DNA of 64,000 nt from Chlamydoabsidia padenii (taxonomy: Eukaryota; Mucoromycota; Mucoromycetes; Mucorales; Cunninghamellaceae), in NCBI GenBank assembly GCA_025330725.1, contig JAIWND010000023.1, positions 124,001 through 188,000 on the forward strand. The letters run 5' to 3'. Below, piece by piece: positions 1,097 to 63,495 of this stretch. The translations under genes and the position numbers were made by a program. Numbering within the stretch: the first letter of the stretch is position 1; the number at the start of each line of letters is the position of its first letter. The notes beneath the pieces were generated by a model. It ran no database searches. It was not told where the DNA came from and worked only from the letters and a program-made list of their open reading frames with translations.

Positions 1097-2598
1097 TCTA
1101 ACAAGTCAGGAAGTAATTGTTGAAGTAATGAAGGTGGTGAATGACAAAAGTAACAAGTAGAGTGTCGTGTAATAGTCAACGGTAGTACCGCTGAAAAGGG
1201 TTATAGAGAATAAGAATGAGGGGAAGGGGGGGGATTGGGGTTGATAAAAAAAAAGGATAAAGAAGAAGAAGAAGAGCGAAAGAAAAGGAAACCCGCCAAA
1301 AAGTCTATATTTATTGAAATCCAGCACCGGGATTTGAAATTTGAAAAAGTTACACGACGTAGATTGCATTACTTTGTTCCTTGTGGCCAAGATATTTTCT
1401 TCGAGTTCCATTTTCCTATTGCCCATTGTAGGATATTTTCCCATTTCTTTTTTTGAACCACTTGATCGATTTACTCAATGTTGGGGTTTCAAGTCCATTT
1501 GAACAAAGGCATGAAAGCAAATAAAAATCTTGACCCCTTTTTCTTTTTTCTGTAGAGTAGATGACAGGAAGGAAGTCTTGATCTAAAGAGAAGCCAAACC
1601 TGTTTGACATTCTGCTTCTTTCCCTATTTCGTTTTGAAAACGGACATGGAAAAACGAACAAAAGAAACAGTATAGATTTGGTAATGTCGGGATTTTAAAA
1701 TTTTCGAAATGAATAGTTATCCATGTGTCACTACCAAGGAAAAATAAGCTCGTGGGATAGGGACAAGGTTGTTTAAAAGCTCATTCTATTGGTCGAGGTA
1801 TATTACCAACCCAATCGCACCTACTCATCTTTCTTTTCTCTTTTTCCTCTTCTTCTTTTTCTTAAGTGTGGAAAAAATGATGTATAGGTGAAAGCATATT
1901 ACTTGGTAGCACAGCTTGTAGAAACGAGTTGGTCAAAGCCACGATTTGGAACATTGTGATATTAACAACCTATAGACTTGTTTCTTTTTTTTTTTTTTTT
2001 TGTTCTCGCCAATATGCAACAAGTGTGTAGTTCTACAAAGAAGTATTGTGAATAGCGTCTAAACTATAAGTGACGCATAAGTGTGATGTTTATAGTCTAA
2101 ATGCTTTTTCTTCAAATCAGCCGTAACCATTTTTGCAGAAATGCCCTGAATCGGGAAGATTTTTTGAATGGGAGTCTGGGGTCCAAAAGTTTTGAAATCC
2201 CGCCATTTTTCATTTTTTCATTAGAAAGTTGGAGATAAATTTTGAGGCAGCTCTTCTTCCCTCTTTTTCATGTCAAAATACTTACCATCGGACCGCCTAC
2301 TATGCCATCAACCACTATTCATCCATGATATAATAACTGCTACTGTCGAAAAAGATCAACCACTCTTACTCAAGACAAGACGTAATCTCCTATTCCTAAA
2401 AGTCAAGTAGGTTTTACAATACAAGGCAACTATTTATTTATTAACTGAAACCTCTTTAACAAATAGACTTGTTGGAACCATAGTATTAATACAACATAAC
2501 CAAACCGACAATACAGGCAAAAACGTTTGTTGTATCCTACACATTGGTAAGTGAAAGAGAAATCTTCTTTTCATGGTATTGACTCTTCTTCTTTTTAG
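1097..2598. other. Intergenic region between LysM gene and OB-fold gene
   Basis: I see no convincing gene here. It holds the upstream region of the leftward LysM gene and the unresolved 5' part of the rightward OB-fold gene. Three copies of the recurrent motif lie at 1328-1339 (exact), 1688-1699 (CGGGATTTTAAA) and 2191-2202 (CGGGATTTCAAA on the minus strand). Confidence 0.6.
1328..1339 (+). promoter_or_regulatory. CGGGATTTGAAA motif upstream of LysM gene
   Basis: This is an exact copy of the recurrent 12-mer, 231 bp upstream of the LysM start at 1096, which is farther than at most other genes. Function is inferred only from recurrence. Confidence 0.4.
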
Positions 2599-3353
2599 AT
2601 GACGGCAGCGCGACGATCCCAATACATCTCTCGCAACGGGTATATAATCGGGAAGGTGTATCAAATATGAAGATTGGCGTTTGGATAACGATTATTGGGG
2701 AAGTCCAAAAACTTGGTGACTCGATTATCATTTTGGGCAAAGGGTAAGTCATGTTTTATACTATCAATAGGTATTCATTCATTCTTCGTTTATGTAATAA
2801 TAGATATCAAGTCGAAATTGAACCCATGGTGGAACTAAATCATTGGCTCCAAGTCCTTGTCAACAACCAAACCCGGATGAATGATAAAAAGCAACCTCTA
2901 TCTTCTTCCGATTATTCAGCAGCTCAAGGAATGAAACGACAAAAACGATCCGGGTCAAGTCTATTTGTTTCCTTGTCATCTCAACCATCACCTATTCGTG
3001 GATCCACCGAAGATCTATATCCATCACCTATACGGGTCGACGAAAACGATCAAATTAGCTGTAGTCAAATCACTCGGGAAGCACCGTGGCACTGGTCACC
3101 AGATCATATTGCAGCTACATCAACACCCCTCATGCAATCTCTCTTTGGCTCACCATATCATATTAGACCTTTGACATCAGGGAGGTCTTCTCCACTTTGC
3201 AACACTGAAACTGCTATCATCACTCAACAACATAATAATAACGATGATGATGATGATGATGATGACGACTTTGGTTTTGCTGATGATTCTCAATTTGAAG
3301 CCATGGACTTTGATGATCTGGAAAAGAAGGCGTTGGAAAATAGGGCACTATAG
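2599..3353 (+). CDS. Small OB-fold-like protein with acidic disordered tail (RMI2-like?), 5' exon not resolved
   Basis: Two exons are supported: about 2599-2743 and 2804-3353, with intron GTAAGT...TAG keeping frame. The first carries a hydrophobic strand pattern around 'KIGVWITIIGEVQKLGDSII', continuing as 'YQVEIEPMVEL' after the intron. The remaining roughly 170 residues are low complexity and end in a nine-Asp run and 'MDFDDLEKKA'. The strand pattern resembles the OB fold of RMI2-type subunits of the RecQ-Top3-Rmi complex, but identity is weak, and TEN1 or another small OB protein is possible. The reading frame is open at 2599 with no upstream ATG before a TGA, so a 5' exon is missing or the start is the internal ATG near 2667. 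Confidence 0.45.
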
Positions 3354-3912
3354 GATGTAGCTTCCCACTTGATTAAGGTGTGATACTCTAACAGCGACAA
3401 ACGACACTTGGTATATCAAAGCGTTGCAATCAACTCGGTAAACAACACATTATGCAGCATTTGACTTGGACTTTATTTTTAATCCCCGTGGTGAAACCTG
3501 TTGGCCCGTGGATGTTATTAAATTATACCCCCAGTGATAGACTTGTTGCCAATTATCCCCCCTTCCCCACATTATTTTATAGTTTGATTACTAGTTTATA
3601 ATTATGATATGTATATAGTATTAGCATTGATTTGGATAATTTGATTGATAAAATTAATAAAGATACGATTTTTAATTTTACACTAATGGAATTGACCGAG
3701 GTTACTATTGTAAGGTAGCCGCTGAATACCTGCAAGCAAACATAAAACAAAAAACAAAAGAAAAGATAGAGCAACCTTTTACACGATCACTTGTTTTTTA
3801 AAATTTATAGATCAAATAACATAAATCAAGTTTATTAGGTAAAGAAGAAGAAGAAGATTAACAAATATATACTAATGTGCTATAATAAAGCCAAAGGTCC
3901 AAGTAGCATACA
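3354..3912. other. Intergenic, AT-rich
   Basis: This is the 3' flank of the OB-fold gene and the upstream region of the glucanase gene. I see no gene and no copy of the recurrent promoter motif. Confidence 0.5.
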
Positions 3913-5665
3913 ATGGGGCTATTCAAAAAGAGCCCTCCAGATTCATCAGAATACATTATAAAGGAAGCCATTCATAATACCAAAGACCGTCATCCACCAT
4001 CAAATCAATCATGGTGGCAGCATAAACGCACCCGCTTTGTAATCATCGGTGCTTTGACAATTATTGTCATTGCCTTGGCTGTCATCGTACCCCTTATCAT
4101 TGTCCACCAGATCCAACAAGTCCATAATAATAGTGTTCACCCTGAATCATCCCCAAATCCAGATCCAGAGAATATCCAAGATAATAGTACCACCACTGAA
4201 CCACCACCACCACCACCACCAGTGAATCCATTCGATGATTCAGCACAAGCCAATAACCACGTACCACCATTGAACCAAAGTTTCCCATATACAAGGACAC
4301 CCATCCGTGGCATCAACCTGGGCGGCTGGTTAGTCCTTGAGCCATTTATCACTCCGAGCCTATTTGAGCAAGCACCCGACCCCACCAAGAAACCCCAAGA
4401 GCGTCATGAGACCAAAGACCATGTGGCGTTAGACGAATGGACTCTGTGTCAGCGGCTAGGTCCTACCCGATCCCGAGAATTACTGGAGCATCACTATGAT
4501 ACGTTTATCACCGAATCAGATTTTAAAACAATGAGTGAAATGGGGTTTAATCATGTACGTATTCCTATTGGTCACTGGGCCATCCGTCCCTTGGCCCGTG
4601 AACCCTTTGTCCCGTATGTGTCTTGGACTTACCTTATCCGTGGCATCCAATGGGCGAGGAAGTATGGTCTGAGGGTCATGGTTGAGTTGCATACCGCGCC
4701 AGGATCACAAAATGGCTGGAATCATTCCGGTCGTTCGGGTGAGATTCGTTTCTTGCATGGCGAAAACGGTCAAAAGTATGCTGAGGACACCATGCGTGTG
4801 GTGAGAGATATTGTCACTTTTTTTAGTACCGATCCAATCACTCGACAGCAAGGTCAGTCGTATCCGAGTCAATGGGCCCACGTTGTGCCGATCTTTGGTG
4901 TGTTAAATGAGCCCGCCATGATGACCATCAAGAAGGAAGATGCACAACAATGGTATCGTGAGTCGTATGCTACCATTCGTAATATCACAGGTGGTAGTGC
5001 AGGTCCAGTCTTGTCATATCATGAGGGTTTCTTGGGGTTGGATCGTTGGAAAGGATTCTTCAAGAATTTCGAGAGGATAATATTGGGTAAGAAGGGAAAA
5101 AAGAAATCCAGGGATTTTTTTTTTATTATGAAAAGCCAAAACATTCAAACGCCGCTTTTTTTTTTTTTTTTTTTTTTTTGTTCCTCATACAGAAACGCAC
5201 ATGTATTTGATCTTTAATCCCGATCTAGTCAATATGGAAAGAGAAAAACAGGCAGCTTTCCCTTGTGACACTTGGCGCTCCCAGCTTTTACAGTCTACTA
5301 AAGAAGTAGCCCCTACCATGGTGGGTGAATTCTCATTTGCAACAAATGACTGTGGCAAGTATGTGAACGGTGTAGGTTATGGTACACGTTATGAAAATAC
5401 GATGGAAGGCGGGGATTCAAAATGCACCAATTGCAATTGCACCAATGTGAATGACTGGGGCTCTTGGACATTAGATTACAAACGCTTTTTGAATACCTTC
5501 ATACAACATCAAATGGATGCATATGAAGCTGGTGTAGGCTGGTTTTTTTGGACTTATAAAACAGAACAGCATATTAACCCTCATTGGGATTACTCTTTGG
5601 CATGGGAACAAGGTTGGGCACCAAAAGATGTCAATCAACGTGATTTCTTTTGTATCAACTCCTAG
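3913..5665 (+). CDS. Type II membrane-anchored exo-beta-1,3-glucanase, GH5 family
   Basis: Exons are 3913-5086 and 5193-5665. The intron has a run of about 22 T just before CAG, and splicing restores 'RIILETHMYL'. The protein starts with a short cytosolic segment and one membrane helix (about residues 42-66), then a Pro/Asn-rich stalk, then a GH5 exoglucanase domain. Family landmarks are 'RGINLGGWLVLEPFITPSLF', 'HVRIPIGHWA', 'HTAPGSQNGWNHSG', the acid/base Glu in 'GVLNEP' and the nucleophile Glu in 'VGEFSFA'. The C-terminal 'GVGWFFWTYKTE' is also typical. It should hydrolyse or remodel beta-1,3-glucan at the cell surface. The length of about 550 residues and the N-terminal anchor resemble the membrane-bound Exg form rather than the secreted short form. 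Confidence 0.88.
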
Positions 5666-5913
5666 TTGTTGTTCATTTTGATAATGCTTTCAAATGATCA
5701 TGTTTTAATAAAGAAAAAAAAATTAGTCGAGTATCAATCATATCAGCTACATTAAGTAAATCATTAAAAGTCCGATCAATGCAAAAAGGATTAAAGAAGA
5801 AATCGCATGAATCCGATCACTTTATGATATATATAGGGCTTTTATATTTTTTATTTATCAGTCATATGGACGCACCGATGATTCAAATCTTTGATTTTTT
5901 CTTTTTCACGTCA

Positions 5914-5920
5914 TATAAAA
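5914..5920 (+). promoter_or_regulatory. TATA-like box
   Basis: TATAAAA lies about 35 bp upstream of the first ATG (5955) of the leader that precedes the SOSS-B start. If it is used, transcripts begin near 5945 and include that leader reading frame. Confidence 0.4.
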
Positions 5921-5954
5921 GAGCTTTTTAAATTCATTTCAACTTTCCTTGGGG

Positions 5955-6254
5955 ATGCCCACCCCTTTAACAAACAACAACAACTTGTCAGTCAATTCTT
6001 GGAATGAGAATATGGCTGGCAATTCTTCTTTGAGAGGGAAGGTTACGGGGCTTCGGCCAACGACAAGTGAAAAAGAAAAGGAAACCACATACTTACACAC
6101 AATACTAACTGATATTTCATCCTCCGCTTATTCGACGAAAATTCAAGTTACTCCTAAACGTCCAATCCTGACCCAGGATTTTAAATCTGCTGACTTACAA
6201 AATAAAATAAAAAAAGTGAATGTAACTTTCTTCCTCTCCTTTTTATTCTCATGA
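5955..6254 (+). other. Upstream open reading frame overlapping the SOSS-B start (ATGA)
   Basis: An open frame of 99 codons starts at ATG 5955 and ends at TGA 6252-6254, so the stop overlaps the SOSS-B ATG at 6251 as ATGA. Its product is Asn/Thr/Lys-rich and not recognised. It could be a translated upstream ORF acting by reinitiation, a non-coding leader, or part of an alternative spliced 5' exon. A canonical splice that fuses it to SOSS-B was not found. Confidence 0.35.
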
Positions 6255-7009
6255 CTTCCCTGGCAAATCAAGCGACACATAAACACACATTACTAAAGGA
6301 TATACGCCCATCAATGCGCAGAATTGACATTGAAGTGATTGTATTGCAACAAGGTAAAGTTAAAAAAAAAAAAAAGAAAACCCCTTCCACAATAATGAAA
6401 TGACCAATTAACTTTGTTGTATCAGAAAGTGAAACCATCGTCACTCATAATGGGGAAATGATTAACAGGTACTTGATAGCTGACAAATCTGGTGTTATGA
6501 TATTAAAAGCCTGGGGCGTTACAGGTGGAGCCATACGCTCAGGTGATATCCTACGTATTAATGGAGTGTAAGTAAAAAGAAAAAAATAGTAATCCTTCAG
6601 CCAAAAAGTAATCTTATCAACTCTACTCTACAACAGGGACTGTAAGTATAATTATGGACACCCGTTCTTAGAAACCTCCAGACTTGGTAAAACAAAACGA
6701 CTTGGTCAAGATACCTTTCCCTTTGCAGAGGGACCCAACTTTTCTCAGCAAAGTGAAACAGGCTCACCACGACTTGGACGACTAACAACAACAACAACAA
6801 CAACAACAACACCATCAGTACCTGGATGGACAACTGGACTTGACAAGAGTAGTGGCAAAATGAATGATCTAGCAAAATTATCGGATTCGACAAGCACTGA
6901 TGGTTTGAACAATACTATCCGGGATCCAAGGAAACGACCACGAGTATCATTGGATAATGAAATGCAACGGCAAGTACGTCGACAGGTAAAATATAATGAA
7001 ATAGTATGA
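6251..7009 (+). CDS. SOSS complex subunit B / NABP-type single-strand DNA-binding protein
   Basis: Exons are 6251-6353, 6426-6567 and 6637-7009, giving 205 residues, close to human NABP2 (hSSB1). A single OB fold spans about residues 13-110: 'LLKDIRPSM' aligns with the family 'VKDIKPG' start, followed by 'YLIADKSGVMILKAWG', 'IRSGDILRING' and 'YGHPFLETSR'. 'EGPNFSQ' matches the 'EVPNFSEP' end of the OB fold. The tail is Thr-rich and basic, as is usual. The family protects single-stranded DNA in double-strand-break repair and in SOSS/Integrator complexes. Common yeasts lack it, so its presence supports an early-diverging fungus. The start at 6251 gives the natural family N-terminus but overlaps the stop of an upstream ORF. 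Confidence 0.85.
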
Positions 7010-7154
7010 TATCCCCCCTCCCCCTTACTCCCTGTTTTTAACTATCTTTAATAATAAAAATATTTATATTTATATTCACATTAACCCATATCTACCCTTT
7101 TCTTTCTTCTTCTTCTTCTTCTTCTTCTTTATATATACCTATATACTATACAAC

Positions 7155-8512
7155 ATGGACCAAACAGTACACATTGCCGCCAACATTCTTAAAAGAAGAC
7201 ATAACCTACCGACTGAAACTGAAAATTCTTTAATGGATTTGCGGTTTGCTGCTTTGAATGAAACTATGCCTTCTCAGGTAAAGTACTTTGGTCGGAATTG
7301 GAATTGATCTCACTCACCTCTCTTTCTCTCTCTCTTCTTTTTTCTCCACCTTAAACTCTAGCGACGAGGACTTTGTTGGAAACTCTTATTACGTGTGGAT
7401 CAAATATCAGCATCTTGTTATATCTCTTTGGTCAAACGTGGTCGTAGTCCTATTGATGCCAAAATCCGCAACGATACCTTTCGAACAATGACAACTGATG
7501 CTGAATTCCTAGAACAGGTCTCTGAAGATATGCTCATCCGGACCTTGAATGCCTTTGTATGGATCAGCTTACCAGGTAAAGGAAAAAAACAAAAACAAAT
7601 GTGATTGGATTATACTAAATCGGAGTGAATAGATGAAAACTACGATAATCGGGAAGAAGCTTATTATCGGGCTAAATTTCTCGGCTGGTTTCCGGATGGT
7701 GGACTTACTTATGTACAAGGTATGAATGTCTTGGTGGCGCCCTTTTTGATGGTGATGCCTGAAATGGAAGCCTTCTTTGCCTTTTCCACTTTTATGTGGA
7801 GGTGGTGTCCATTGTATATCCAACCCAATCTAAAAGGTGTACATTGTGGGGCAAAGGTAAAGTTTTAACTGCAACTTTGATTGGTTTGATCTAATTCCCA
7901 TTCTTTTAAGCTATTAGACATGTGCCTGAAAACTCTGGACCCACCACTCTACTATCTTTTACTAAGCAAAGGTATTACTGCCAATGTATATGCTATTCCA
8001 TGTAAGTAGACTAGTGTAACAACTTGACTCAATACTAATAGATTATTCTTTTTTTTTTCTCACTATAGCGGTGATGACATTCTGTGCCTGTACACCACCA
8101 TCTAAAGAATTACTACTACTTTGGGATGTTATGTTTGCATTTGGACTCCATCTAAACATCCTCTTTATCATTGCCCAACTCGCATTGATGAGACAAGATC
8201 TAATTATTAGCAAAAGGTAGGGAATCCAAAGGGGCTGGAATGATCACAATGAATGGTACTCATCTTCTTTTCTTTTGATTATCTAGTCCTATGAAGTTAA
8301 TTCGCAAACTGCCTCACCTACAAGCGAAAAAAATCATCAAGATCACTTTGACTTCAATCAAGATCATACCACCCGATCTTTACGATAAATTGGTACGACA
8401 TGCTTACGATGAATCTGTTGCCGACAGTATTGGGATTCAACTATCTGCTGGTGTCACCCAATCTGAAGACCTACACACTTTACCCCCTTACTTGGCTGAA
8501 GCTCTTCTTTAA
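7155..8512 (+). CDS. BUB2: Mitotic checkpoint GAP Bub2/Cdc16 (TBC domain)
   Basis: Six exons: 7155-7277, 7362-7575, 7633-7856, 7911-8001, 8069-8216 and 8287-8512, all GT-AG and frame-consistent. The protein is a TBC/RabGAP domain with Bub2-specific segments: 'RRGLCWKLLLRVDQIS', 'AKIRNDTFRTM', 'LIRTLNAFVW', 'YVQGMNVLVAPFLMVMP', 'GVHCGAKLLDMCL', 'VMTFCACTPPSKELLLLWD' and 'SPMKLIRKLP'. With Bfa1/Byr4, Bub2 is the GAP for the Tem1/Spg1 GTPase that controls mitotic exit and septation at the spindle pole. The total of about 340 residues fits the family. It starts 146 bp after the SOSS-B stop; the gap is T-rich with a (CTT)n run at about 7104-7127. Confidence 0.9.
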
Positions 8513-9870
8513 TAAACCAATAAAAAACATCTTGTTTATTTTTAACCCCCGACTTGTCTTTGATTTAAAATTCTGCATTAGGATTTGATGTTGGGAGGAT
8601 TCCAGAAATTCTACCTGATCCACCCACTTTATTGTTTGTTATTACTAATGTATACTGTCTATCTGTCTTTAAAGGATTTGGGCACCACTAAAAAAGTTGG
8701 TGTCAAAGTTTACAAATGTGGCAATGGGGTCAGCCTTTTTTTGATTGGTTTCTTCTCCTGGTTATTTTTAGCCTTTACTGATTCGTTTACTTCTTGATCG
8801 TTGTGTTGCCTCTCGTACATTAGGTTGTTTTAAAAAAGGGAAACATAAAGTCAAATAAAGTAGAGTACAGTCTTATTTTTGTACAATGAATTGTCAAAAT
8901 CTCCTTGAAGGAGAGATCGGACTACCCTTACCCCTGACTTTTTTTTTATGCATGATTCAAATTCAAAACCCGACACATGGGTCCATGTTACATCTTTCTT
9001 CTTAAAAAGGGAATAGAAGACGAATGAAAGACAATGGGTGGAAGCACCCGTGAACCAATGAAACTAAAAGGGAGAACATGACACACAGACTTTCTCTTTG
9101 TATCAAGTTTTTTTTTTCTTACTTGCTTTTGTAACAAAGCTGGGGTTCAGTTCTTCTTTTAGTACAGGTCGCACCATCACCAAAAGCCTGTCAATCAGGC
9201 TCACTGATCACGCTTTCTGACCCAAAGGTCAAAAGATAGGTTCGAGACCTCCCATGGGAGAGAACAAAAACGTGACATCTCAAAATGGTAATAGAACAAA
9301 ACTTGAATTGTTCTAAACATCTATTTTGTTCTATATGATTGGTTTGAGGCTTTTTTCGTCGAATTAGGTAACTTCTTAGAAAAGCTAGTGCGAATATGAT
9401 TGGACAAGGAATAATTGAGGGAGAAAAGGGAACCAAATTGGAATGAGATCGATCGAGATTTGGCTCAACGCTCGCCTACCTACTCGATCTTCGTCTTCAT
9501 TTTTTTTCAGTTGATTAGGAAAGAGGAGAGAAAAAACCATGGATCGATGTGTTGCATAAATCTTCTTTGTCTTTTCCTTCTTCTAGACCACTTCAAGTTT
9601 ATAGTGTAGAGTCGATCGATGATGATGGATTCTCTTCTCTCCTATTTACTAAATAGGCCACACTATCATCTTTTAGTACATACCCTTGATCGATTTCACG
9701 GTTTTTTGTGAACGGAGCTTTTATTTGCAGGCTCGTTCCTCATTGGTATAATTTAACTTGAAAAATTATCGGGATTTGAACTCGACATATAAAAGTTCTG
9801 CTTCCATCATTTTTCCTTTTTCTTTATCTTCTTTCTCTCTCTCTCTCTCTCTCTCTCTACTCTTTTCATT
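8513..9870. other. Intergenic, 1.36 kb, no supported gene
   Basis: A 70-codon hydrophobic frame near 8585-8797 has no clear homolog and no splice partner, so it is not annotated. From 8797 to 9770 I see only short AT-rich frames. A degenerate motif copy (TTCAAAACCCG) lies near 8962. The proximal promoter of the next gene has the motif at 9770 and a (CT)n run at about 9834-9858, just before the ATG. Confidence 0.5.
9770..9781 (+). promoter_or_regulatory. CGGGATTTGAAC motif, 89 bp upstream of the 9871 start
   Basis: It matches the recurrent 12-mer at 11 of 12 positions, in the same orientation as the gene. It is followed by 'CATATAAAAG' (TATA-like) at about 9785 and a pyrimidine-rich leader. 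Confidence 0.5.
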
Positions 9871-10675: not shown

Positions 10676-10974
10676 TTTAATCATCATTAATCAACCCATT
10701 AGTATCATCATTATAGTATTATTATCATGCAACCATTCATTCATACAATCATTTTATTCATTCCATAGGTATATCCCCCCCTTTTATTACTATCATTTTA
10801 TCAATAAAGTTAATAAACAGTAATTTGGTTAATATTGTATAGGGGCTATTTTTATTGGTGTGTAATGTGTGTGTGTGTGTGTGTGTTTGTGCGCGCATAA
10901 AACTATATGTGTATATAAATAAAGGGTGAAAGAGATAGCAATAATAAAAAAAAAAAGACTACAATTTTTTTTTT

Positions 10975-12364: not shown

Positions 12365-12397
<33 letters not shown>

Positions 12398-13278: not shown

Positions 13279-14198
13279 GAGTTGATGTGTGTAAAGTGAA
13301 GAAGAAAGAAAAGAAAGAAGGAGGTTTTTCTAAATAAAAAAAAAAAAAAAAAAAAAAGAAAGGGTAAAAATAACTTCCCCGCCGCAAATAGTACCACCCT
13401 CAGCTAGCGGGATTTAAATTTTACCAAACAAACAAGAGAAAGATCATCCCTTCCAAGGAGTCTCAGGACACTGCAAAGAGGCCGGTACGTACGTATATAT
13501 ATATCTATATAAGAAAAAGAAAAAGAAGAAGAATGCATACCATGTAGTTTATGATTGGTTATCACAAGGGAAAGTACAGAGTACAGAACAACAATGTATC
13601 TTGATGCTGCTCATCTTAATTGTAAGAGGTTTCAGCATTAACCTGGAAGATCAAGATCGATTGGGGATGATTCTGCCGGGATTTCAAATGACACCAGGAA
13701 AAAACAGTTCAGGTACGTCCATCCATTTCATCGTGTCAATCGCTACAGATTAGAATAGAATCACCACCAGCTATAATGCTCTTGATTTGATTCATGTGCA
13801 ATTGGGGATGCATCAAGTAGGATTTTTTTCTTTTTTGAAAAAACCAATTGTTTCAAATCCCGCATTTCAAGCATAATGCACCTTCCTAGATCTTTGAATA
13901 CATGCCATTGTTATATCCATTTCATGCCAAATGGTATCCATCATGAATTGAAAAGAATGATTCCTATTAAAGATGCCATTCATCATTTTGAATTCCCCCT
14001 GTTACACATAATGCCCCCCCCCAAAAAAAAAGAGTTGATATCTGTTTATTGTTTTATTTGTTTAGTACACCATCAATGGTGATAAAAACAAAAGTTAAAA
14101 AGAAAAAGATGTATTAAGTACGCTAGGGGGAGAATAGTAAAGTAGTATAAAGGGTATAAGCAATAATAAACAGACAATAACAGGGTGTAAAGGAGGAT
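13279..14198. other. Intergenic between phosphatase start and CCCH gene end
   Basis: No supported gene. It holds an A-tract of 24 near 13335, a (TA)n stretch at 13495-13503 and three copies of the recurrent motif (13408, 13677 and 13851). The last two have no obvious downstream gene; a 68-codon frame starting 13876 on the plus strand has no recognisable features. Confidence 0.5.
13408..13419 (+). promoter_or_regulatory. CGGGATTTAAAT motif, 129 bp upstream of phosphatase start
   Basis: This is a variant of the recurrent 12-mer, in opposite orientation to the phosphatase gene (start 13278, minus strand). Confidence 0.4.
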
Positions 14199-15097: not shown

Positions 15098-15531
15098 TCA
15101 TACACCAAGTTGGTCACATTCTTGATCACCTCTAATACAAGTATACCAATCCTTGCCTAGTGGACACTTGATATCCGCTTCCAATCGACAAGGACATTGC
15201 TTGGGTTCCGCCACACAACTTTTAGTATTTTGACAAAAGTAGCCTTGTACACAGTCTAATTCCAATTTATATAAATAATGTCAACATTCATTAGTATAAG
15301 TATTAATGGGAGGGGATCATTTGTTTTGTCTTGTTCATTACCTTGTCCTGACGATTGTTGCTTCTTCAAGAGTCGCGCTGGCACCCTATAACCAAATGTT
15401 TGGGTTTTCCCAGATGGTCCTTGTTCCGATTCGCTGTTGCCAAATATGATATTCTTTAAATCAAAGGTATAGACTGGCATAAGGTAGAATAAAGAGAGAA
15501 GGGTAAAGAGAAGAATGGTGTATTTGTGCAT
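15098..15531 (-). CDS. LCL2: Long chronological lifespan protein 2 (Lcl2)-like secreted protein
   Basis: Two exons, 15531-15342 and 15255-15098, give 115 residues, near the family length. The N-terminus 'MHKYTILLFTLLSLFYLMPV' is a signal peptide. The last exon has the Cys pattern of Lcl2: 'DCVQGYFC', 'SCVAEPKQCPC', 'IKCPLGKDWYTC' and 'QECDQLGV' at the end. In yeast Lcl2 is linked to ER-associated degradation and lifespan; its biochemical role is unclear. An exact copy of the recurrent promoter motif lies 94 bp upstream of the start. Confidence 0.8.
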
Positions 15532-15625: not shown

Positions 15626-15637
15626 TTTCAAATCCCG
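15626..15637 (-). promoter_or_regulatory. CGGGATTTGAAA motif, 94 bp upstream of LCL2
   Basis: This is an exact match on the minus strand, in the same orientation as LCL2. Confidence 0.5.
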
Positions 15638-21810: not shown

Positions 21811-21845
<35 letters not shown>

Positions 21846-26833: not shown

Positions 26834-26845
26834 CGGGATTTGAAA
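26834..26845 (+). promoter_or_regulatory. CGGGATTTGAAA motif, 83 bp upstream of thiolase
   Basis: This is an exact match in opposite orientation to the thiolase gene. A half-similar 'GATTTCAAAT' lies 15 bp away at 26819. Confidence 0.5.
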
Positions 26846-27165: not shown

Positions 27166-27177
27166 CGGGATTTGAAA
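27166..27177 (+). promoter_or_regulatory. CGGGATTTGAAA motif, 83 bp upstream of GDSL esterase
   Basis: This is an exact match, in the same orientation as the gene. Confidence 0.5.
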
Positions 27178-27260
27178 CTCACTACTCGTATAGGATGGAC
27201 ATTTTCATTTTTTTAGTTTTTTTTTTCGCTTCTCTTCCACTCCCGACTCTACTTACAACC

Positions 27261-28412
27261 ATGAATCATCCTTATAATCAAATTGTTTTATTTGGGGTAA
27301 GCTATAAAAAGTGAAAAAAAAAGGGTGGCCAATGTCAATGACAAATAGAAATAACTAATTTGACTTTTATTTAGGATTCCATTACTCAGGTACGTTTATG
27401 TAAAACCACTGAAATAGGACAAGAATGAAATACTCATACTACCTTTTATTGCTATTGCTGCCAAAATAGATGAGTTTTGATCCTTCGTTGTTTGGCTTTG
27501 GTGCTAGTTTGGCAAGCGTAAGTATATTTGTAGGATGGGATAGGATGATATATCTAATGACCTCTTTTTATATACATATATAACAGGCATATCAACGCAA
27601 AATCGACGTCTTGAATCGGGGATTCTCAGGTATAAAGATGTTTATCACTCTTTCAAACATTTCACTAACTTGACTTGCTTGTATTGTTATTTAGGCTATA
27701 ACACAGAATGGGCTCTTCCTATCTTTCGCCAACTATTACCAAAAAAGACCGACCAACACAACCAAGCAGCACGAATCGAATTGATGACCATCTTTTTCGG
27801 TGCCAATGATGCAGCCTTGCCAATCTCCTTTCAACATATCCCATTAACTCGATTCAAGACTAATTTGGAAACTATGATCAGCGCTGTGAAGGATTCCAAC
27901 TCACCTTATTATAATCCGAACCTTCGACTCTTACTTATCACCCAACCTCCTCTGAATGAACCACAATGGAAGAAGACTTGTGATGATAATGGTGGTCCTT
28001 TAAACCGAACTGCTGAAAGTGCCAAGACGTATGCCTCCATGGTGAAAACAGTGGGTCAAGAACAAGGTATCGTGGTGGTGGATCTCTGGTCAAAGGTGAT
28101 GGAACAAGCAGCCGCGCAACCCAATGGACTGGAACACTTTTTGTTTGATGGCTTGCATCTCAATTCAAACGGTTACAAGGTAAGCAAGAATAAAGTGGGT
28201 GGGGGGGGGGAATAAACAAATAGCTTTTGATATACTGATTGATACACTTGTAGGTCTTGTTTGATTTATTGATGGAAACTATTCAAACGCATTATCCTGA
28301 AGTACACCCAAACAACATTGAAATGGAATTGCCTGCTTGGAGGGATTTGGCCAGTATCAATGATTTGGATCGAGCTCTGTCTTTCCCTTTGCTCAACAAA
28401 AAGGATGCATGA
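27261..28412 (+). CDS. GDSL/SGNH esterase, isoamyl acetate hydrolase (Iah1)-like
   Basis: Six exons: 27261-27296, 27375-27389, 27470-27517, 27587-27629, 27695-28179 and 28254-28412. The 15-nt second exon encodes only 'DSITQ', which holds the nucleophile Ser of block I ('FG|DSITQ'). Other SGNH blocks are the Gly in 'NRGFSGYNT', the Asn in 'FFGANDAA' and the Asp/His pair in 'DGLHLNSNGY'. Length is about 260 residues, similar to Iah1 of yeast, which hydrolyses acetate esters. The true substrate is not known. The protein has no signal peptide, so it is probably cytosolic. Confidence 0.88.
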
Positions 28413-31503: not shown

Positions 31504-31515
31504 TTTCAAATTCCG
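31504..31515 (-). promoter_or_regulatory. CGGAATTTGAAA motif, 89 bp upstream of Nudix gene
   Basis: One mismatch from the recurrent 12-mer; same orientation as the gene. It is also the left end of a segment resembling the 54-kb tandem repeat. Confidence 0.4.
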
Positions 31516-31756: not shown

Positions 31757-31887
31757 TAGTCGGGATTTGAATTGATTTTCAGATACTGCATGAATTTCTT
31801 GAATAAACGCACCCCCTTTCACGGTCAGAGCTGATCTACATGACGAGCAAATCACGTTTGAAAAAAAAAAATCCAAAGACTTTTCAC
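31757..31887 (+). repeat. Dispersed repeat, copy A
   Basis: It is clearly related to 62739-62874 in the same orientation. Shared blocks, in order, are 'GTCGGGATTTGAATT', 'CTGCATGAA', 'TTTCAC-GTCAGAGCT', 'TCTACATGACGAGCAA', 'TCACG', 'TTGAAAAAAA' and 'ATCCAAAG-CTTTTCAC'. No coding capacity. The two copies differ at scattered positions and by small indels, so the duplication is not recent. Confidence 0.75.
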
Positions 31888-43569: not shown

Positions 43570-43639
<70 letters not shown>

Positions 43640-46993: not shown

Positions 46994-47594
46994 TCTATCA
47001 AAATGCTATTCTTATCTCATTCTCATTCTTCCCGATCCCACCCCCTTCTCTGAGATCACCCAATATGGGATCATAATTATATACCTGACACTTATCAGTT
47101 TTTTGTATGCATAATACAGATAAAACGGAAATCAAGTCCTCCTCTATCTTTAATCTATTAATACCCCTTTAAATCGCATTATGGGACTACTGTTTCATGG
47201 TTACGATACAGATTTCCTTTTCCTTTTTTTTTTTTTTTTTGAGTTGCAGGTTTTCAAATCCCGATTGACTCGGTGGAAAGTATCTTTCATCATTTCCCAA
47301 AAACTGCAATGAGCGTGATGTCAGTAGCTTTTGATCTCATTTGAAGAGTAGCAAGCAAGATGGTTTGCACCCGAATGATGTGAAATCAAAGCAAACTTTT
47401 CTTTTTTATGCAGAGGGAGGGAGGAGGAAAAAATTTAGTCAGTTTTGAGGGAAAAGACAAATGTTGATTGGTCTGGCTCCTGGGAAAAAAGTCGGTTTTG
47501 AAATCCCGATGGCGGCCAAATAAAAAGCTTTCAAACGATTTCCCCTTTTTCCTTTTTCTTTCGCTCCCATCCTTACATTAATCAATCATACCAA
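46994..47594. other. Intergenic with two motif copies
   Basis: No gene. A T-tract at about 47223-47240 is followed by exact motif copy 47252-47263 (minus), then motif 47497-47508 near the next gene. Confidence 0.5.
47497..47508 (-). promoter_or_regulatory. CGGGATTTCAAA motif, 86 bp upstream of L-serine dehydratase
   Basis: A variant of the recurrent 12-mer, in opposite orientation to the gene. Confidence 0.5.
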
Positions 47595-49323: not shown

Positions 49324-49354
<31 letters not shown>

Positions 49355-49823: not shown

Positions 49824-50210
49824 ATCACCGACTCGACTCTACCTTTATTTGCCTGATCATCCATTATCACTTGGTTAATAAGATTCCCATCTCTTTTAAA
49901 CATTTAGCTTATATATTTTTGATCTTGTTTTTTTAAACCTTTGTACTTTTATTATCCTCTTTATACATAACCACATCTTAAATCACAATAAAACTTACTT
50001 TTTTTTATGACTCAAACTTATCGGATGACTTCAAATAAATAGTGTCCGTCTCGGTAGGAAGTCGTTGGCTAGCCAATCATTAATGTTGTTCAACTGAACC
50101 AAGTAGAAGGGTTTCACAACTATCGATTTTCAAATTCCGATAGTAGGTCTATAAAAATCAATCTCATCTTCTTGTCTACGAATCTTCATTATCTAATAAT
50201 TTATTCAATC
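49824..50210. other. Intergenic with promoter motif
   Basis: 3' flank of serine dehydratase and the promoter of the DUF1772 gene. Motif TTTCAAATTCCG at 50128-50139 is 71 bp before the ATG. Confidence 0.5.
50128..50139 (-). promoter_or_regulatory. CGGAATTTGAAA motif, 71 bp upstream of DUF1772 gene
   Basis: One mismatch from the recurrent 12-mer, in opposite orientation to the gene; the same variant as at the Nudix gene. Confidence 0.4.
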
Positions 50211-50758: not shown

Positions 50759-52440
50759 TCTTATTGAATAAAAATAAGTTGCCAGCATGTGAACCCCCCA
50801 ATCATGCATTTTCAAATCCCGAATATAGCGTTGTTTGAAACAAAATAAACCCTCGATCAACGAACCAAAAACAACATAAATTGAACTCCCGACCGGCTTC
50901 GGGTATACATCATGAATAAGCGGAGAATGACATATCAGTTAGTATTATGTGGAACCGTTGGTCGAAGCCCCGTACCCTTCCTTCTCAGAGGAGGGGTTCC
51001 AGCCATATTCTCATCCAAGAATTGGGGCGTAGGTATTTTAGCTGTCCATCTAATTTTGGTTGCATGAGCAATAAAAATAAAATAAAAAAAGCATGAATTT
51101 TACACGATTCATCATGTATATAAGTGTTATCCATCGTGATACATAAATCATTTATAATAGGAACACCTTCATTGATAAACGTATATATATTGACCAGCAG
51201 GCATATGATAAAACAAGACTTTATTGACTGTAAGATTAAATATAACACTATATCCACAATAAAACTAATCTACCACCATTGTTATTCACAAGACATCATA
51301 TTTTGATATTGCTGGACCAATGATTGGTTTGACATTCAAATATATCCCCAATTGCAATCAAGAGGTGTACCATCGTCGCACTTGACTACCAAATCCACCC
51401 TCAATGTCCACCGCGTTTGCGATAGCATTATTATTCTTTTCAACCAAAGCCTATTGTATTCCATTCGGAGAACGTCGTCCTTTTCACCAGTTTGTTGTAT
51501 CAGCCAAAAAAGAGACTCGTCCAAGGTCAATTTGTAGGCATCTATTCTACATCAACATGAATTGAAAAGCGTTAGTATTATATTCATGGGTAAGGTGATT
51601 GTACAAGAAGATAGAGTCAGTATACATTACTACCCCTTTCTCTTCCTGCCTTTTTTTTACCTTTGCCGTGTTGATCCTGTTTGGATAATTTCCGAGAGAG
51701 CCCATTACTACTACAGAGTCAGTTATTTCGTCACCTCTTTTTGTTTATCTTCATCATTCAGTCGTTACAACAAATGGGAGTGCCCTGTTGAAGAGAATCA
51801 AGTTGAATGTCTTTGGAATGGGAAGGCAAAGAAGAAGGATAATGCTTTCTCGCAAAGTTATTAAAATCCCGCGATTTTTGAAAGTCCTTTTTGTCCTTTT
51901 CTTCCCTCTTTTTGTTTTTTGTTTTATTTAACCTTCCCTATACACAAACCTCCCCTTTAACCCCCCTCCCACCCTTTACGAACCTGTGCTTGACAGACAA
52001 GTTGGCTATTGCTTGCCATGATTACAAGATGGATTAATTAACACACAAAAGTAATCCATGAATCACCTAATGGCTGTCTATATGAAAAACATGTTTTGTG
52101 ATGGCTGCAATCTCATGACTTCCTCCCTCTTATTGTGATTCTGGTCATAAAGGTAAGTCAATGCATCTTGAATGATACTCTGCCAAAGTTGTTACTGTTT
52201 CATACTCTAACTGAATTGTCGATTATTTACACTAGGTTTATGCTCCCTCTTTGCCTCTGATATGTGAAGTCTCCTGTTAGTAATTAAATGGATAAGTTGG
52301 CAGATTTTGCGAGGCGGCTACCTTTGTGTAGAATAGTAATTAGGCCTAGCCTTTTTGCCGTGGCAGGACGTAGGCGACATCGTGTCCTGTTCCAAACCTG
52401 GATCTGCTAGCGAATGGGTTGTGCTGGTAAAGCGGGATGT
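50759..52440. other. Gene-poor region, first part
   Basis: An exact motif copy lies at 50810-50821 (minus), and a weak 'AAAATCCCG' copy near 51863, with no clear gene next to either. Apart from the possible exon at 51336-51541, I find no coding signal. Confidence 0.45.
51336..51541 (-). CDS. Possible 3' exon or gene remnant, unrecognised
   Basis: On the minus strand, after an acceptor-like 'TAGAATAG', 68 codons run open to TGA at 51336-51338. The composition looks coding: 'LDESLFWLIQQTGEKDDVLR', 'EYNRLWLKRIIMLSQ', 'LRVDLVVKCDDGTPLDCNWG'. I found no upstream exon with a sensible donor and do not recognise the family. It may be the end of a decayed gene. Confidence 0.25.
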
Positions 52441-53543: not shown

Positions 53544-53829
53544 TATAAATGCCTTTATTTTATCTGGGTGTCTTTTATTAATTTAGATGTGTACTATATG
53601 TGTTTCTACTGTCTATATGTACTGCTACTATTTTAACTGCCTGCATGGACCTGTATTGCAATGTATCTATCGGCCTCACCATTGTTTATATGTACGCCTT
53701 TGTGGCACCAGTATCGGATCTATATAATTTTCAACATTGCGGTATTGACCTGTAGCTACACATAATCACTATATCCATCTATGTAGATAAAAGTCGATTT
53801 AGGATGACAAAAAGGTGTCGAGGTCGTTC

Positions 53830-54540
53830 GCATGAAATTTGGTAAAACTTCTTTTCAAAACCCACCGACCCTCGCCTTGAATCTTGGGAGAGCTCTATTG
53901 TCTCAATGAATAAGTGATGCTAATGACAAAAGTGACCATGTCCATTCCTTGGCCTATTTCCAACAAAGTTTACATAATGGCCAATATACCAAATATCTTG
54001 CACAGAGCAGTATAGCTTCAAGATCGTTTCAACCTGACTTTTGTGAAAAATGTTGCAGAATGAAAATTGACACACCAGACCAAACTTATTTCAAATCCCG
54101 CTTACCCTCGCTTTTAATCTTGGGAGTGCTCTACTGCCTTAATGAACAAGCGATGCTAATGACAAAAGTGACCATGTGTATTCCTTAGTCTATTTCCAGC
54201 AAACTTTACATAATGGCCATTGTACCAAGTCTACTGTATGGAGCAGTATAGCCTCAAGATTGTTTTACCCTGACTTTTTTTTAAAAAAAAAGTGGCAGAA
54301 TGAAATTTGACAGACAAGATAAAACTTATTTCAAAACCCGCTTACTCTCGCCTGGAATCTTAAGAGAGCTCTACTACCTTAATGGACAAGCGATGCTAAT
54401 GACAAAAGTGACCATGTGCATTCCTTAGTCTATTTCCAACAAACTTTACATAATGGCCATTGTACCAAGTCTACTGTATGGAGCAGTATAGTCTCAAGAT
54501 TGTTTTAACCCGACTTTTGTAATAATAAAAAAAGTTGCAG
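53830..54540 (+). repeat. 240-bp tandem repeat, three copies
   Basis: Copies are about 53830-54058, 54059-54298 (240 bp) and 54299-54540 (242 bp), with the first bases of a fourth at 54541. Each contains, in order, 'ATGAAAWTTGA', the promoter-like TTTCAAA-CCCG, 'ATGCTAATGACAAAAGTGAC', 'CATAATGGCCA', 'GAGCAGTATAG' and an end 'GTTGCAG'. Copies 2 and 3 are most alike, and copy 1 is more diverged. No long open frame is shared by the copies. It may be a satellite or a tandem non-autonomous element. Confidence 0.85.
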
Positions 54541-57136: not shown

Positions 57137-57345
57137 AGACTGGGATTCGGATATATCTATGCACTAGTACTTTAGAATTAAATTTATATATATATATATA
57201 TATATTCCGTTTTTTTTATTTTTATTCACCAACTAATAAAGACTCTCTTTGTTTTATCATTTGTATGGGCTTTTGTGTGTGTGCATGATTTAGTGGCGGG
57301 TACACTTCAAACAAAAATTGCAAACCCCGATCCTTCTTGTGATGG

Positions 57346-57357
57346 CGGGATTTGAAA
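57346..57357 (+). promoter_or_regulatory. CGGGATTTGAAA motif, 68 bp upstream of EAF7
   Basis: This is an exact match, in the same orientation as the gene. Confidence 0.5.
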
Positions 57358-57425
57358 TGCATTTATGACTTTATTTTTTCTTCTCACATTGATTCCCGCT
57401 TCTTCTTACCAAAACCATTATAATT

Positions 57426-58402: not shown

Positions 58403-58638
58403 TTTGGGTACACAACACTGTTTTAAAATCAAGTCAACAAATGGGGTGCACAAAAAAAAGGTCCCAACACCGATCACCCCTTTCTTTCCTGACCCCTTTA
58501 TCACCCCTTCCTTGTGCATGGTCAACTTTTTTTTTTTTAAATACCAACCTATCATATTATCTCCCCTCATACTATTACAACGCCGACTGAATAAATTTTT
58601 ATCTTCCCCAATTCAAATTTTTATAATCCTCTTCCTTT

Positions 58639-58682
<44 letters not shown>

Positions 58683-58708
58683 TTGCATATACCTACTACA
58701 ACAAGAAG
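58403..58708. other. Intergenic, with T40 tract at the FAD2 5' end
   Basis: A run of 40 T (58641-58680) is followed directly by AG, 27 bp before the FAD2 ATG. It looks like the acceptor of a 5' UTR intron whose donor I could not place. Confidence 0.45.
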
Positions 58709-60016: not shown

Positions 60017-60210
60017 ACTCCGACCCCCACACACCCCTTATTTTACCTCACCTCCTTTATTTTTAACATTACCGAAGATAATCCATTATCCTTATCTTCT
60101 ATACTCTTCTCATCTTCATTTTATACATATTTACTATTCATAAATAAAATTTGTTTTTTTTTAAACTATTACAGGAACAGGGTGTCTATGATTGGGATTT
60201 CTGTCAGAAT

Positions 60211-60222
60211 CGGGATTTGAAA
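60211..60222 (+). promoter_or_regulatory. CGGGATTTGAAA motif, 63 bp upstream of tubulin cofactor E
   Basis: This is an exact match, in the same orientation as the gene. Confidence 0.5.
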
Positions 60223-60285
60223 TGATAAAATGGAACTGTCTCCTCTTTTTTTTTTTCGTCTTTCTTCTTCCTTTATTTTAAATCA

Positions 60286-60482
60286 ATGTCAACCATCTCC
60301 CATGATATACAAATAGGTACCCGAATTCAAGTCGACGAAGACCGTGCTACAGTCCGATATATTGGAGAAGTAGCAAACTCGACTGGCCAATGGTTAGGTG
60401 TGGAATGGGATAATGATACCAGAGGAAAACACGATGGTTCTCACAAAGGCATCCGTTACTTCTCATGTCGGTAAGTCTATTT

Positions 60483-60513
<31 letters not shown>

Positions 60514-62515
60514 CGTTTTTATTAATCTTTACTTTCTTATTATTTAGGTCAGATACATCTGGATCTTTTATTCGGTACCACGCTAAAAAAGTGTTACTTG
60601 GATGCTCTTTTTTGGATGCCTTGACGTCGAAATACATTATCGATCTCACTCAAGACCCTAATTCTGTTTATGATCCTACTAAGGATTCTGGTACGGTCTA
60701 TCTTGGTGGCAACAAAAACATTGAAGTGGAAACGGTTGGATTTGGGAAAATCCAAAAGGCACAAAGGTAACTAATAGAGAAAATGTCGTTTTACGCTTTA
60801 ACCCAAACTGGTCTCTCTCTCTCTCTCTCACTTTTTTTTTTTTTTTTTGATAGTCAACTAAGCGATCTCAAGGTGGTGGGATTATCTGACACGAAAATTG
60901 TGAGCGAAGGAAAAAATCAAGTCATTGCAAAAGCCAATTTGTGTAAGAATAAGAATCAATGATGACGTTTGGATACTAAGCTCTCTCTCTCTCTCTCTCT
61001 TTTACCAGCAATAGAAGATTTGGACTTGTCAAAAAACCTTGTAAATGATTGGAAGACAGTGGCAAACATCGCATCTCAATTACCACAGTTAACGATCCTA
61101 CGCTTAAAGTAAGTTTACCCTTCCTCTCACCTAATCCAATTTAGAACTGACTTCTTTCTCCTGTTTGTTTTTTTTAATAGCTATATACGACTTCTTCCAC
61201 CAGATAATCAGCTACTGAATTCATCGCCATCACCCTTCCAACATTTGAAAACATTGGTGCTATGCAATACCCATATCACTTGGCATCACATTCTGCAACT
61301 CGAACCTCTTCTTTTGCATTTAGAAGATCTTCAGCTCAGCGGAAATGGAATCAGCAAACTTGACTACTCACCAACTCAATTTCAGCAACTCAAATGCATT
61401 AACCTGGAGGACAATTGTATACAAGACTGGAAACAAGTGGATCATCTCGGCTCATTACCAAAGTAAGTTGATCTACCTATGATACATTATGATCGTCAAC
61501 TAACATTCTATCGATAGTTTGGAAACACTCTTCCTGAACGGCAACCATATACCATCTATTGATCTTACCCCTGACTCTTTTAAAAAGTTGGCCTATTTGC
61601 GCGTGGATCGAAATCAACTACGACATTGGGATAGTTTTGACATTCTTGATCGATTGCCCTCATTAGTCAAGCTACGTTGCCATGAAAATCCTGTTTTCAA
61701 AGGTATGTTTTAGGTGGGTGTGTCCATTGAACATTCGCTTAACTCTCTGTTTCTTTGTTTTTATATATAGGCATACATGTCGAGGAAATTGCTGCACAAG
61801 TGGTGGGTCGGATTCATGGTCTTACAACACTAAATGGAAATACCGTAAGTAAAATCACATGAAGACAAAAAATGGGATCATTTATATTATCTTTTTATGA
61901 TGTTAGCTGACCGGTCGGGAACGGATTGATCTGGAACGATTTTACCTTAAACTTTGTACTCGTGATGGCGATACGCAGGATAAAATTGTAACGAAACACC
62001 CGAGATACCTGGATTTATGCAGAGGTAAGTTTTTTTTTTTAATATTTATACAAACATAACCTCATGACATACCCCCTTTTTTTTGTATGTGCATAGTGCA
62101 CGGGGAACCAGATATCGGACCAGGCAAGAATAACATTGGGTTAGGAATGACATCTACATTGAACCAGCGCTTGATTACCATCACATTATCACAACTACCT
62201 TTGTCAACAGAACAAGATTTATTACAAAAACACCAAACGAATGATTTGCCTGCCCCTGTACACACAATGACCAAACGAGTCCTTGCTACCATGATCGTCC
62301 GAAGTCTCCGCCATTTGATCCAGAAACTGTTCGGTGTACCTGCGTCTCGACAACACCTGTACCTGATACAACAACCATCTGAAAATGAACAGTCATCTGA
62401 AAATCAACAATCCTCTCAACCACATTCGATGATCATGGACATGGCCGATGATTTGCGAGACTTGAAATATTACAGCATAGGTCAAGGCGATCATATAGTT
62501 GTATTGGATTACTAA
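60286..62515 (+). CDS. Tubulin-specific chaperone E (TBCE/Pac2)
   Basis: The gene has about nine exons; the first are 60286-60470 and 60548-60766. The order of domains is that of TBCE. A CAP-Gly domain comes first ('ATVRYIGEVANSTGQWLGVE', 'WDNDTRGKHDGSHKGIRYF', 'GSFIRYHAKKV'). Leucine-rich repeats follow ('LEDLQLSGNGISKLDY', 'LETLFLNGNHI', 'LAYLRVDRNQLRHW'), then 'LTTLNGNTLTGRERIDLERF' and a ubiquitin-like C-terminus ('YYSIGQGDHIVVLDY'). It joins cofactors C and D to release alpha/beta-tubulin. A Ser/Glu/Gln repeat inside the ubiquitin-like part ('SENEQSSENQQSSQ') is unusual. (CA)n and (CT)n microsatellites are in introns 1-3. Confidence 0.9.
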
Positions 62516-63495
62516 TCTGTTTGATTATATGTAGTATTATATTGTAGTTGTAGCTTATGGTATATCCCTTTAAAATTGTCTTTGTTTATAAATAAAACTG
62601 TAGTTGCTTTCAACTCAAGATTGTATGGTCCTTTTTTTTTTTTTTTTTTTTTTTTTTTGCACATGTAGGCAACGATTGGCAAAAAGGCAACCTATTTTCC
62701 CCCACCTGAACTCTACGCCCAACATATTCACCCCGAGTAAGTCGGGATTTGAATTCCAAAAGCCGATTCTGCATGAAAATCCCATTTGGCAAATTTTCTT
62801 TCACCGTCAGAGCTAGTCTACATGACGAGCAATTCACGATTGAAAAAAAAAAAAAAAATCCAAAGTCTTTTCACTATAATACATTCTTCTACCATGGTCC
62901 TCCTACTCTACGGCCAACAATTACCACCTGTGCCCACGCCCAACGTCTACTTACCCTATACTTGGCCAAACTCTACGACCAATATATTTTCCCCCACAGT
63001 CGACCCTACCTCTGGCTAATATGTCAAGGGATTTACTTTCTTTGGACAACAACCAACAGTTAGATACATAATGATACATAATAAACAATAACTTTTACAC
63101 CGCTTTGGCTATAAATAAAGTTAATAATGTCTTTATAGTTTAATGCAATGTATAGTCAAGCAGATAGAGGGTGTATGGGGAATACATGCACACATCGTGG
63201 GAAACGGAGTTTTGATCCCATAATAAACCCAAAATCAGGTATAACCATAGATTAAACAAGGCCGAATTGGTCCACCGCATCACGTTTAGTTCGATGTTTC
63301 CTTTTTTTATTTAAATACAAATTGCAAAAACAAAGAAAAACTATAAAATAAGATACTACTAATCATCAAAAATAAAAAATAAAAAGAAGACTACAACTAT
63401 ACAAACTATTTCCTAGAGAAGTATATATAATGTCATCCACTATGTAAACGGATCAAGCAAGATCACCACCAGCGCCTTTATGAATCAAATCGCAC
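62516..63495. other. Intergenic with dispersed repeat copy B
   Basis: No gene. It has a T-tract at 62632-62658, then repeat copy B (62739-62874). Three partial internal repeats start 'CTCTACG-CCAA' (about 62711, 62908 and 62971). Downstream (63060-63480) I see nothing but AT-rich 3' flanking sequence. Confidence 0.55.
62739..62874 (+). repeat. Dispersed repeat, copy B
   Basis: Homologous to 31757-31887; see that copy for shared blocks. It starts with a motif copy (CGGGATTTGAAT at 62743) and ends in an A-run of 16 and 'ATCCAAAGTCTTTTCAC'. Confidence 0.75.

Follow-up and report, generated by a model that had tools for sequence, protein, structure and literature searches.

A recurrent intergenic motif, RKCGGGATTTGAAWW, as a probable general proximal promoter element in the Mucorales fungus Chlamydoabsidia padenii

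Introduction

What is the role of a 12-bp word that recurs between the genes of a fungus, in front of genes of many unlike kinds? The question is raised by a 64,000-bp stretch of Chlamydoabsidia padenii DNA (GenBank assembly GCA_025330725.1, contig JAIWND010000023.1, positions 124,001 to 188,000 of the forward strand; hereafter, the window). An earlier note, made from this sequence alone, had singled out the word CGGGATTTGAAA and proposed a general promoter element or a broad regulator. This proposal is supported by the position at which the sites peak, by flanks that are not shared and by the diversity of the genes concerned. We estimate a probability of about two in three that the motif, with the consensus RKCGGGATTTGAAWW, represents a general proximal promoter element in this Mucorales fungus and a site for a Reb1-like, putative chromatin-opening factor.

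Abundance and Consensus of the Element

The genome comprises 34,228,448 bases in 95 contigs, and the window is part of it. A genome-wide count, which the earlier note had proposed as a check, revealed 2,353 exact copies of CGGGATTTGAAA (1,163 forward and 1,190 reverse) versus approximately 4 expected by an arithmetic estimate with even bases, while the reversed 12-mer, used as a control, was found 0 times. When up to one mismatch was allowed, 8,400 sites were detected, versus 69 for the control. The window itself contains ten exact copies, the same ten that had been reported and no others, compared with 0.01 expected from 100 dinucleotide shuffles; among its 25 commonest 12-mers, CGGGATTTGAAA is the only non-simple word.

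Sequence-level analysis was performed on a 284-kb sample (0.8% of the genome), consisting of the window and 22 stretches of 10 kb from contigs C1–C8 and C10 that were picked blind to the motif. Sites were scored with a position weight matrix (PWM) at thresholds of 9.5, 12 and 14 bits, and column-permuted matrices served as the control. At 9.5 bits, the PWM identified 268 sites in the sample versus a mean of 35.4 for 20 permuted matrices.

The consensus RKCGGGATTTGAAWW, derived from 200 non-overlapping sites at 12 bits after the removal of 13 sites belonging to a repeat family, is broader than the exact 12-mer. C1, G2, G3, A10 and A11 are each present in at least 98% of these sites, and T7 and T8 in 91–94%. 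Position 4 is G in 68% of the sites, position 5 is A or G in 88% (A in 116 of 200), position 6 is mostly T, and position 9 is G, C or A in 93%. T and G are equally frequent at position 0 (86 of 200 each), and A or T occupies position 12 in 191 sites and position 13 in 178, whereas C stands at these two positions in 6 and 16 of the 200. Beyond about -1 to +13, the flank columns of the 268 sites hold at most 0.07 bit, so the copies are not pieces of a single dispersed element; an origin from a single transposable element, raised in the earlier note, is at odds with flanks that share nothing outside approximately 15 bp.

Position Relative to Predicted Genes

Gene starts were predicted with a purpose-written hidden-Markov gene finder, which models exons, introns and intergenic sequence on both strands and was trained on the long open frames of the 284-kb sample. 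The positional results therefore concern starts that were predicted rather than annotated, and cover 0.8% of the genome. Of the 139 gene models that it produced, 101 have a start and span 100 codons or more. The first exon is at least 90 bp long in 71 of the 101, and these are referred to as well-defined starts.

Sites with up to one mismatch (79 in the sample) were strongly depleted in exons, with 4 observed versus 43.5 expected by length. They were concentrated in tandem gaps (30 versus 11.8 expected), divergent gaps (15 versus 4.3) and contig-edge regions (16 versus 6.8), and introns contained 8 with 8.1 expected. All 20 such sites of the window lie outside genes according to the gene models, in agreement with the earlier observation that every copy is intergenic.

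Around the 71 well-defined starts, motif density increases at -150 to -50 and is nearly nil at -50 to 0. The 268 PWM hits formed 33 hit–start pairs at -150 to -50, compared with 0–2 pairs for ten column-permuted PWMs, which had fewer hits overall (20–56 each). The peak is also present in the 77 non-window starts alone, and its position corresponds to the enrichment 50–130 bp upstream of starts on which the earlier proposal depended. A hit within 200 bp was found for 37 of the 71 genes at 9.5 bits, 32 at 12 bits and 30 at 14 bits. With a score of at least 12 and the repeat family removed, a site at -170 to -45 precedes 44 of the 101 starts (35 of the 77 outside the window). Both orientations are used, as had been claimed: at scores of at least 14, the 71 starts are preceded by 14 sites in the same orientation as the gene and 14 in the opposite one.

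The general use originally ascribed to the exact word is retained with three amendments: the consensus is wider than that word, roughly 45–50% of sampled genes rather than every gene have the element in front of them, and a downstream pyrimidine tract is coupled to it.

Coupling to a Pyrimidine Tract

When promoters are read in the gene frame, a pyrimidine tract is found on the gene side of the motif, densest 40–75 bp from the motif centre. Taking a single site for each of the 44 genes (of 101) that have one, C+T exceeds A+G by 0.52 at +40 to +75 and by 0.00 at +8 to +35. This difference of 0.522 compares with 0.192 (standard deviation 0.074) after reassignment of motif–ATG distances among genes, and none of 5,000 shuffles reached it; the coupling goes further than the distance to the ATG would account for. 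The same test gave 0 of 2,000 shuffles for the non-window loci alone and 0 of 2,000 for each of three other gene-finder settings. When promoters are split into three bins by motif–ATG distance (n = 16, 16 and 14), the tract follows the motif in each of them and changes its place relative to the ATG. Eight loci around exact copies had been kept outside the PWM and tract fits; four of them demonstrated an imbalance of 0.83–0.89 at 40–75 bp on one side and are pyrimidine-rich when read outward from the motif. Genes without the motif also have pyrimidine tracts near the start, but weaker ones. The coupling is real on average, and its spacing is loose.

A TATA-like ATAAAA occurs between motif and tract in 3–6 of the 44 promoters per 20-bp window; elsewhere it is seen in 0–1 of 44 in windows at -45 to -15, yet in 4 at -60. 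We infer that transcription probably initiates at the tract. General bidirectional initiation was considered in view of a purine-to-pyrimidine flip in the motif frame and was dropped as a general claim because the strong tract is confined to the gene side in the gene frame. Divergent pairs have a modest opposite skew upstream in that frame.

A secondary zone of sites lies at -420 to -250 and involves 28 genes, 16 of which also carry a proximal site (12.2 expected). Eight of the other 12 have a C+T excess of at least 0.3 at +40 to +75 of the distal site, suggesting that first exons were probably overlooked in these genes.

Genes Preceded by the Element

Outside the window, 31 site-bearing genes have at least 200 codons, and the longest exon of 20 of them was scanned against Pfam. 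Fourteen of the 20 had a match, and the matches were of many kinds, with P-type ATPase, SET/MYND, leucine-rich repeat, SPX/ACT, HAD, mitochondrial carrier, cyclic-nucleotide-binding, CRAL-TRIO, orotidine decarboxylase and two RCC1-like proteins among them. Site-less genes were likewise mixed (10 of 36 scanned, 6 of the 10 matched). The view that the genes share no pathway therefore holds for the 14 matched genes among the 20 scanned, in which none is evident, although this is a small sample and a subtle class bias is possible.

At locus L020 (5175-5325), the orotidine-5'-phosphate decarboxylase gene and its divergent neighbour lie 150 bp apart with one common copy of the element (5236), and pyrimidine-rich strands run outward on both sides of it.

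Paired Sites and Repeats

After repeat removal, site pairs in the 284 kb are rare at 40–160 bp and commonest at 200–240 bp. Across the genome, CGGGATTTSAAA forms 2 same-orientation pairs at 105–135 bp, 14 at 205–235 bp and 6 at 305–335 bp; 3 of the 14 have a common downstream sequence and may be repeat-derived. It is possible that paired copies bracket one nucleosome.

A family of tandem repeats of approximately 240 bp carries the element in its units. It is present in the window (53803-54518) and at loci L011 (about 6300-7350), L013 (about 5700-6650) and L025 (about 3500). It contributes 13 of the 268 sites and is the only family recognised. Across the family, the element copy is usually CGGGTTTTGAAA. 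In the window, the units are 72–90% alike to the middle unit, and no predicted gene of at least 100 codons covers the array.

The upstream regions at L030 8166(-) and L025 471(+) are near-identical over approximately 100 bp; the element differs between them at positions 4, 9 and 14 only, all of which are degenerate. In addition, a GTAAAAGTCATCGCAAG-like stretch is located 3' of several copies (C12:702902, C15:193453, C34:847983 and L001), which hints at another family of repeats or at conservation of a promoter module.

Copies of the Element in the Window

The earlier note had placed the element 63–94 bp before the ATG of nine window genes, and this arrangement was recovered for eight; for the ninth, DUF1772, no convincing gene was found. 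Protein names in the window rest on that note and on reading of the predicted protein sequences. The ATGs of the 9871 gene and of the thiolase, Nudix, serine dehydratase, EAF7 and TBCE genes agree with the final gene models, while the GDSL ATG at 27261 is present in the first-pass gene model only. The model of the LCL2-like gene starts at 15480, and an in-frame upstream ATG at 15531 gives the distance of 94 bp.

Exact copies precede five of these genes. For the LCL2-like gene, 94 bp separate the copy at 15626..15637 (-) from the probable ATG 15531, and the copy at 26834..26845 (+) stands before the acetyl-CoA acetyltransferase (thiolase) gene with ATG 26750(-). The copy at 27166..27177 (+) precedes the GDSL-type gene (ATG 27261), with a tract of 85% C+T between them (27202..27254, +). 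Before the EAF7-like gene (ATG 57426), the copy at 57346..57357 (+) is followed by a tract of 83% C+T (57369..57410, +). The copy at 60211..60222 (+) precedes the tubulin cofactor E-like (TBCE) gene with ATG 60286; the intervening tract, 93% C+T, is the presumed initiation zone (60236..60279, +).

One-mismatch copies take the same place before three further genes. The copy at 9770..9781 (+) is separated from ATG 9871 by a tract of 92% C+T (9796..9870, +). A CGGAATTTGAAA copy at 31504..31515 (-) precedes the Nudix-like gene (ATG 31414(-)), and a CGGGATTTGAAT copy lies 257 bp from it at 31761..31772 (+). The serine dehydratase gene (ATG 47595) is preceded by a copy at 47497..47508 (-), with a tract of 94% C+T in between (47539..47574, +), and the exact copy at 47252..47263 (-) forms its distal partner, 245 bp apart.

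Pattern search also located exact copies at 1328..1339 (+) and 13851..13862 (-). Another exact copy, at 50810..50821 (-), has no convincing gene model adjoining, and the one at 54089..54100 (-) lies within a unit of the 240-bp tandem repeat. Of the ten near copies reported before, nine have one mismatch each, and the copy at 13408..13419 (+), CGGGATTTAAAT, which stands before ATG 13278(-), has two. One-mismatch copies are also found at 1688..1699 (+; CGGGATTTTAAA), 2191..2202 (-; CGGGATTTCAAA), 13677..13688 (+; CGGGATTTCAAA), 50128..50139 (-; CGGAATTTGAAA) and 62743..62754 (+; CGGGATTTGAAT), the last being the sole one of the 20 window sites between convergent genes. A further one-mismatch copy, CGGGTTTTGAAA at 54329..54340 (-) within the 240-bp tandem repeat, was absent from the earlier list.

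Elsewhere in the window, a desaturase has 100% identity to a protein of Chlamydoabsidia padenii and 89% identity to a Halteromyces radiatus protein, which bears out the placement in Mucoromycota assumed in the earlier note.

Discussion

In the mechanism that we favour, an abundant sequence-specific protein would bind RKCGGGATTTGAAWW as double-stranded DNA and would displace or exclude a nucleosome, thereby opening the promoter; in budding yeast this is the work of Reb1, Abf1 and Rap1, and in animals of NF-Y. Assembly of the pre-initiation complex would follow directly downstream of the element, where the gap holds a TATA-like word in some promoters, and transcription would start in or beside the pyrimidine tract, which leads to the ATG. 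Where promoters have a second copy approximately 200–250 bp upstream, that copy may delimit a single nucleosome on its far side. Taken strictly, the term general regulatory factor site implies nucleosome removal by a dedicated protein; in that sense the element is a candidate.

Several observations count against this interpretation or narrow it. Within the window alone, the tract falls short of significance (9 of 24 genes; 150 of 2,000 shuffles), and plain long open reading frame (ORF) starts give weaker effects (19 of 89 genes; 64 of 2,000 shuffles). The farthest distance bin has a second pyrimidine peak near the ATG. A coarser measure, the midpoint of the 20 nt richest in pyrimidines between motif and ATG, does not tell the two apart, with a standard deviation of 23.0 bp when measured from the motif and 20.1 bp from the ATG. 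The tract starts 18–37 bp from the motif centre in five individual promoters of the window, so the spacing between motif and tract is inexact. The other four of the eight unused loci have no tract in the 40–75 bp window. As many as 153 of 198 full-flank sites are not at -170 to -45 of a predicted start, and the tract is weak there; convergent gaps hold 6 of the 79 sites with 4.5 expected. The home-made gene finder overlooks some short first exons, the GDSL gene being an example, and motif–ATG distances are consequently blurred. The peak in pair spacing owes partly to repeats. Orientation is uneven in the larger sets, with 17 same and 26 opposite before the 101 starts at scores of at least 14, and 13 same and 22 opposite in the non-window loci at 12 bits. 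Both orientations are used in these sets too, and a mild bias is possible.

A general promoter site is not the only way to explain the pattern. A pathway- or phase-specific regulator with a large regulon would account for the 57 of 101 predicted starts that lack a site at -170 to -45, and large regulons exist. We nevertheless consider this unlikely: the site precedes approximately 45% of genes in blind-chosen stretches, these genes are of diverse kinds, and a specific regulator would not usually be coupled to a tract near the start. Another alternative, E2F-DP/LIN54 (DREAM) acting at a cell-cycle-dependent element/cell-cycle genes homology region (CDE/CHR), is suggested by the composition of the motif, in which KCGGG would be the E2F-like, G/C-rich half and the adjoining TTTGAA is the classical CHR. 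In worms, promoters bound by DRM are marked by hybrids of the E2F and LIN54 motifs (PMC3093354), and the genome contains six E2F/DP domain matches (C7, C56, C19, C67, C1 and C8). However, the element requires neither of the two halves in their canonical form. LIN54 needs TTYRAA (PMC4974476), and this is absent from 73 of the 200 sites in either allowed frame; its presence in 127 sites compares with 132 expected under column independence, so the TTYRAA rule is not what is conserved. The E2F core GCG is dispensable, with T at position 0 as often as G, and genome domain searches, run without a positive control, found no LIN54 or LIN9 (DIRP) matches. We regard a cell-cycle element as very improbable.

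The remaining explanations fare worse still. Dispersed repeats or transposable element remnants could be invoked for the 13 of 268 sites carried by 240-bp repeat units and for the 3 of 14 same-orientation pairs that share another downstream sequence, but 200 non-overlapping sites with the same consensus are left after family removal, and the uninformative flanks together with the strong positional preference make this origin highly improbable. A signal read at the RNA level, within the 5' leader, would be in keeping with the location within 150 bp of the ATG; that both orientations are used, that sites are nearly absent at -50 to 0 and that they lie upstream of the pyrimidine tract render it comparably implausible. 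The idea of a TFIIIC B-box or extra-TFIIIC site stems from the reverse complement TTCAAATCCC, which resembles the tRNA T-arm GGTTCRANYCC at 9 of 11 B-box positions, and several tRNA papers were among the open-access matches listed for the word. A B-box needs GG before TTC, that is, C at motif positions 12-13, where C is found in so few sites (6 and 16 of 200) that the idea is hardly credible. A target of N6-methyladenine (6mA) was also considered and rejected: the Mucor and Phycomyces methylation motifs given in PMC11258239 are AAAACA and VATB, and the A of the motif's ApT, at position 5, is variable among our sites.

Known systems close to such an element include the sites of yeast general regulatory factors (Reb1, Abf1, Rap1 and Cbf1, and CACGAC in Candida), which are likewise short, sequence-specific, present in many unrelated promoters and located just upstream of initiation. 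The Reb1-type core is CGGGTAA. Unlike it, the element has mostly A or G at position 5 and mostly T at position 6, and CGGGTAA occurs in 1 of 57 promoters without the element and 0 of 44 with it; at 1 of 101 promoters in total, a Reb1 site proper was rejected. The CCAAT box, bound by NF-Y (the Hap complex), works in either orientation and is similarly proximal and general, but its sequence is different, and CCAAT is about equally common in the 57 promoters that lack the element (31) and in the 44 that have it (21). Gal4-type zinc-cluster half-sites contain a CGG triplet, and the element shares with them an invariant CGG beside an A/T-rich half, but no second CGG or CCG half is enriched at positions 15–17. 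Our guess is that a zinc-cluster (Zn2Cys6) factor would suit this arrangement; candidate readers of the CGG triplet exist, as the genome contains 46 Zn_clus domain matches. NF-Y is reported to uphold the nucleosome-depleted region and thereby start choice (PMC6624317). Yeasts swap one general regulatory site for another in evolution (PMC2897762), which makes an unfamiliar general site in Mucorales plausible.

The earlier note knew of no described fungal element with this sequence, and we likewise found none, judging by title, among the open-access matches listed for the word, its reverse complement and its sub-words. The papers listed for promoter motifs, chromatin and start sites in Mucorales and early-diverging fungi included none that evidently deals with the element, and among them we saw no work on the general promoter elements of early-diverging fungi. 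The element thus looks undescribed.

A more far-reaching version of the promoter reading holds that the element is dominant across the lineage (Cunninghamellaceae/Mucorales), that one dedicated protein opens approximately 40–50% of genes through it and sets starts a few dozen bp away in either orientation, and that paired sites bracket a nucleosome; this version is tentative, and we would place it somewhat below even odds. Overall, 2,353 copies, a control of zero and the coupling to a pyrimidine tract offer a handle on the binding protein, on the promoters of these fungi and on the evolution of general promoter factors outside yeasts. The element would also aid gene-start annotation and promoter design in Mucorales.

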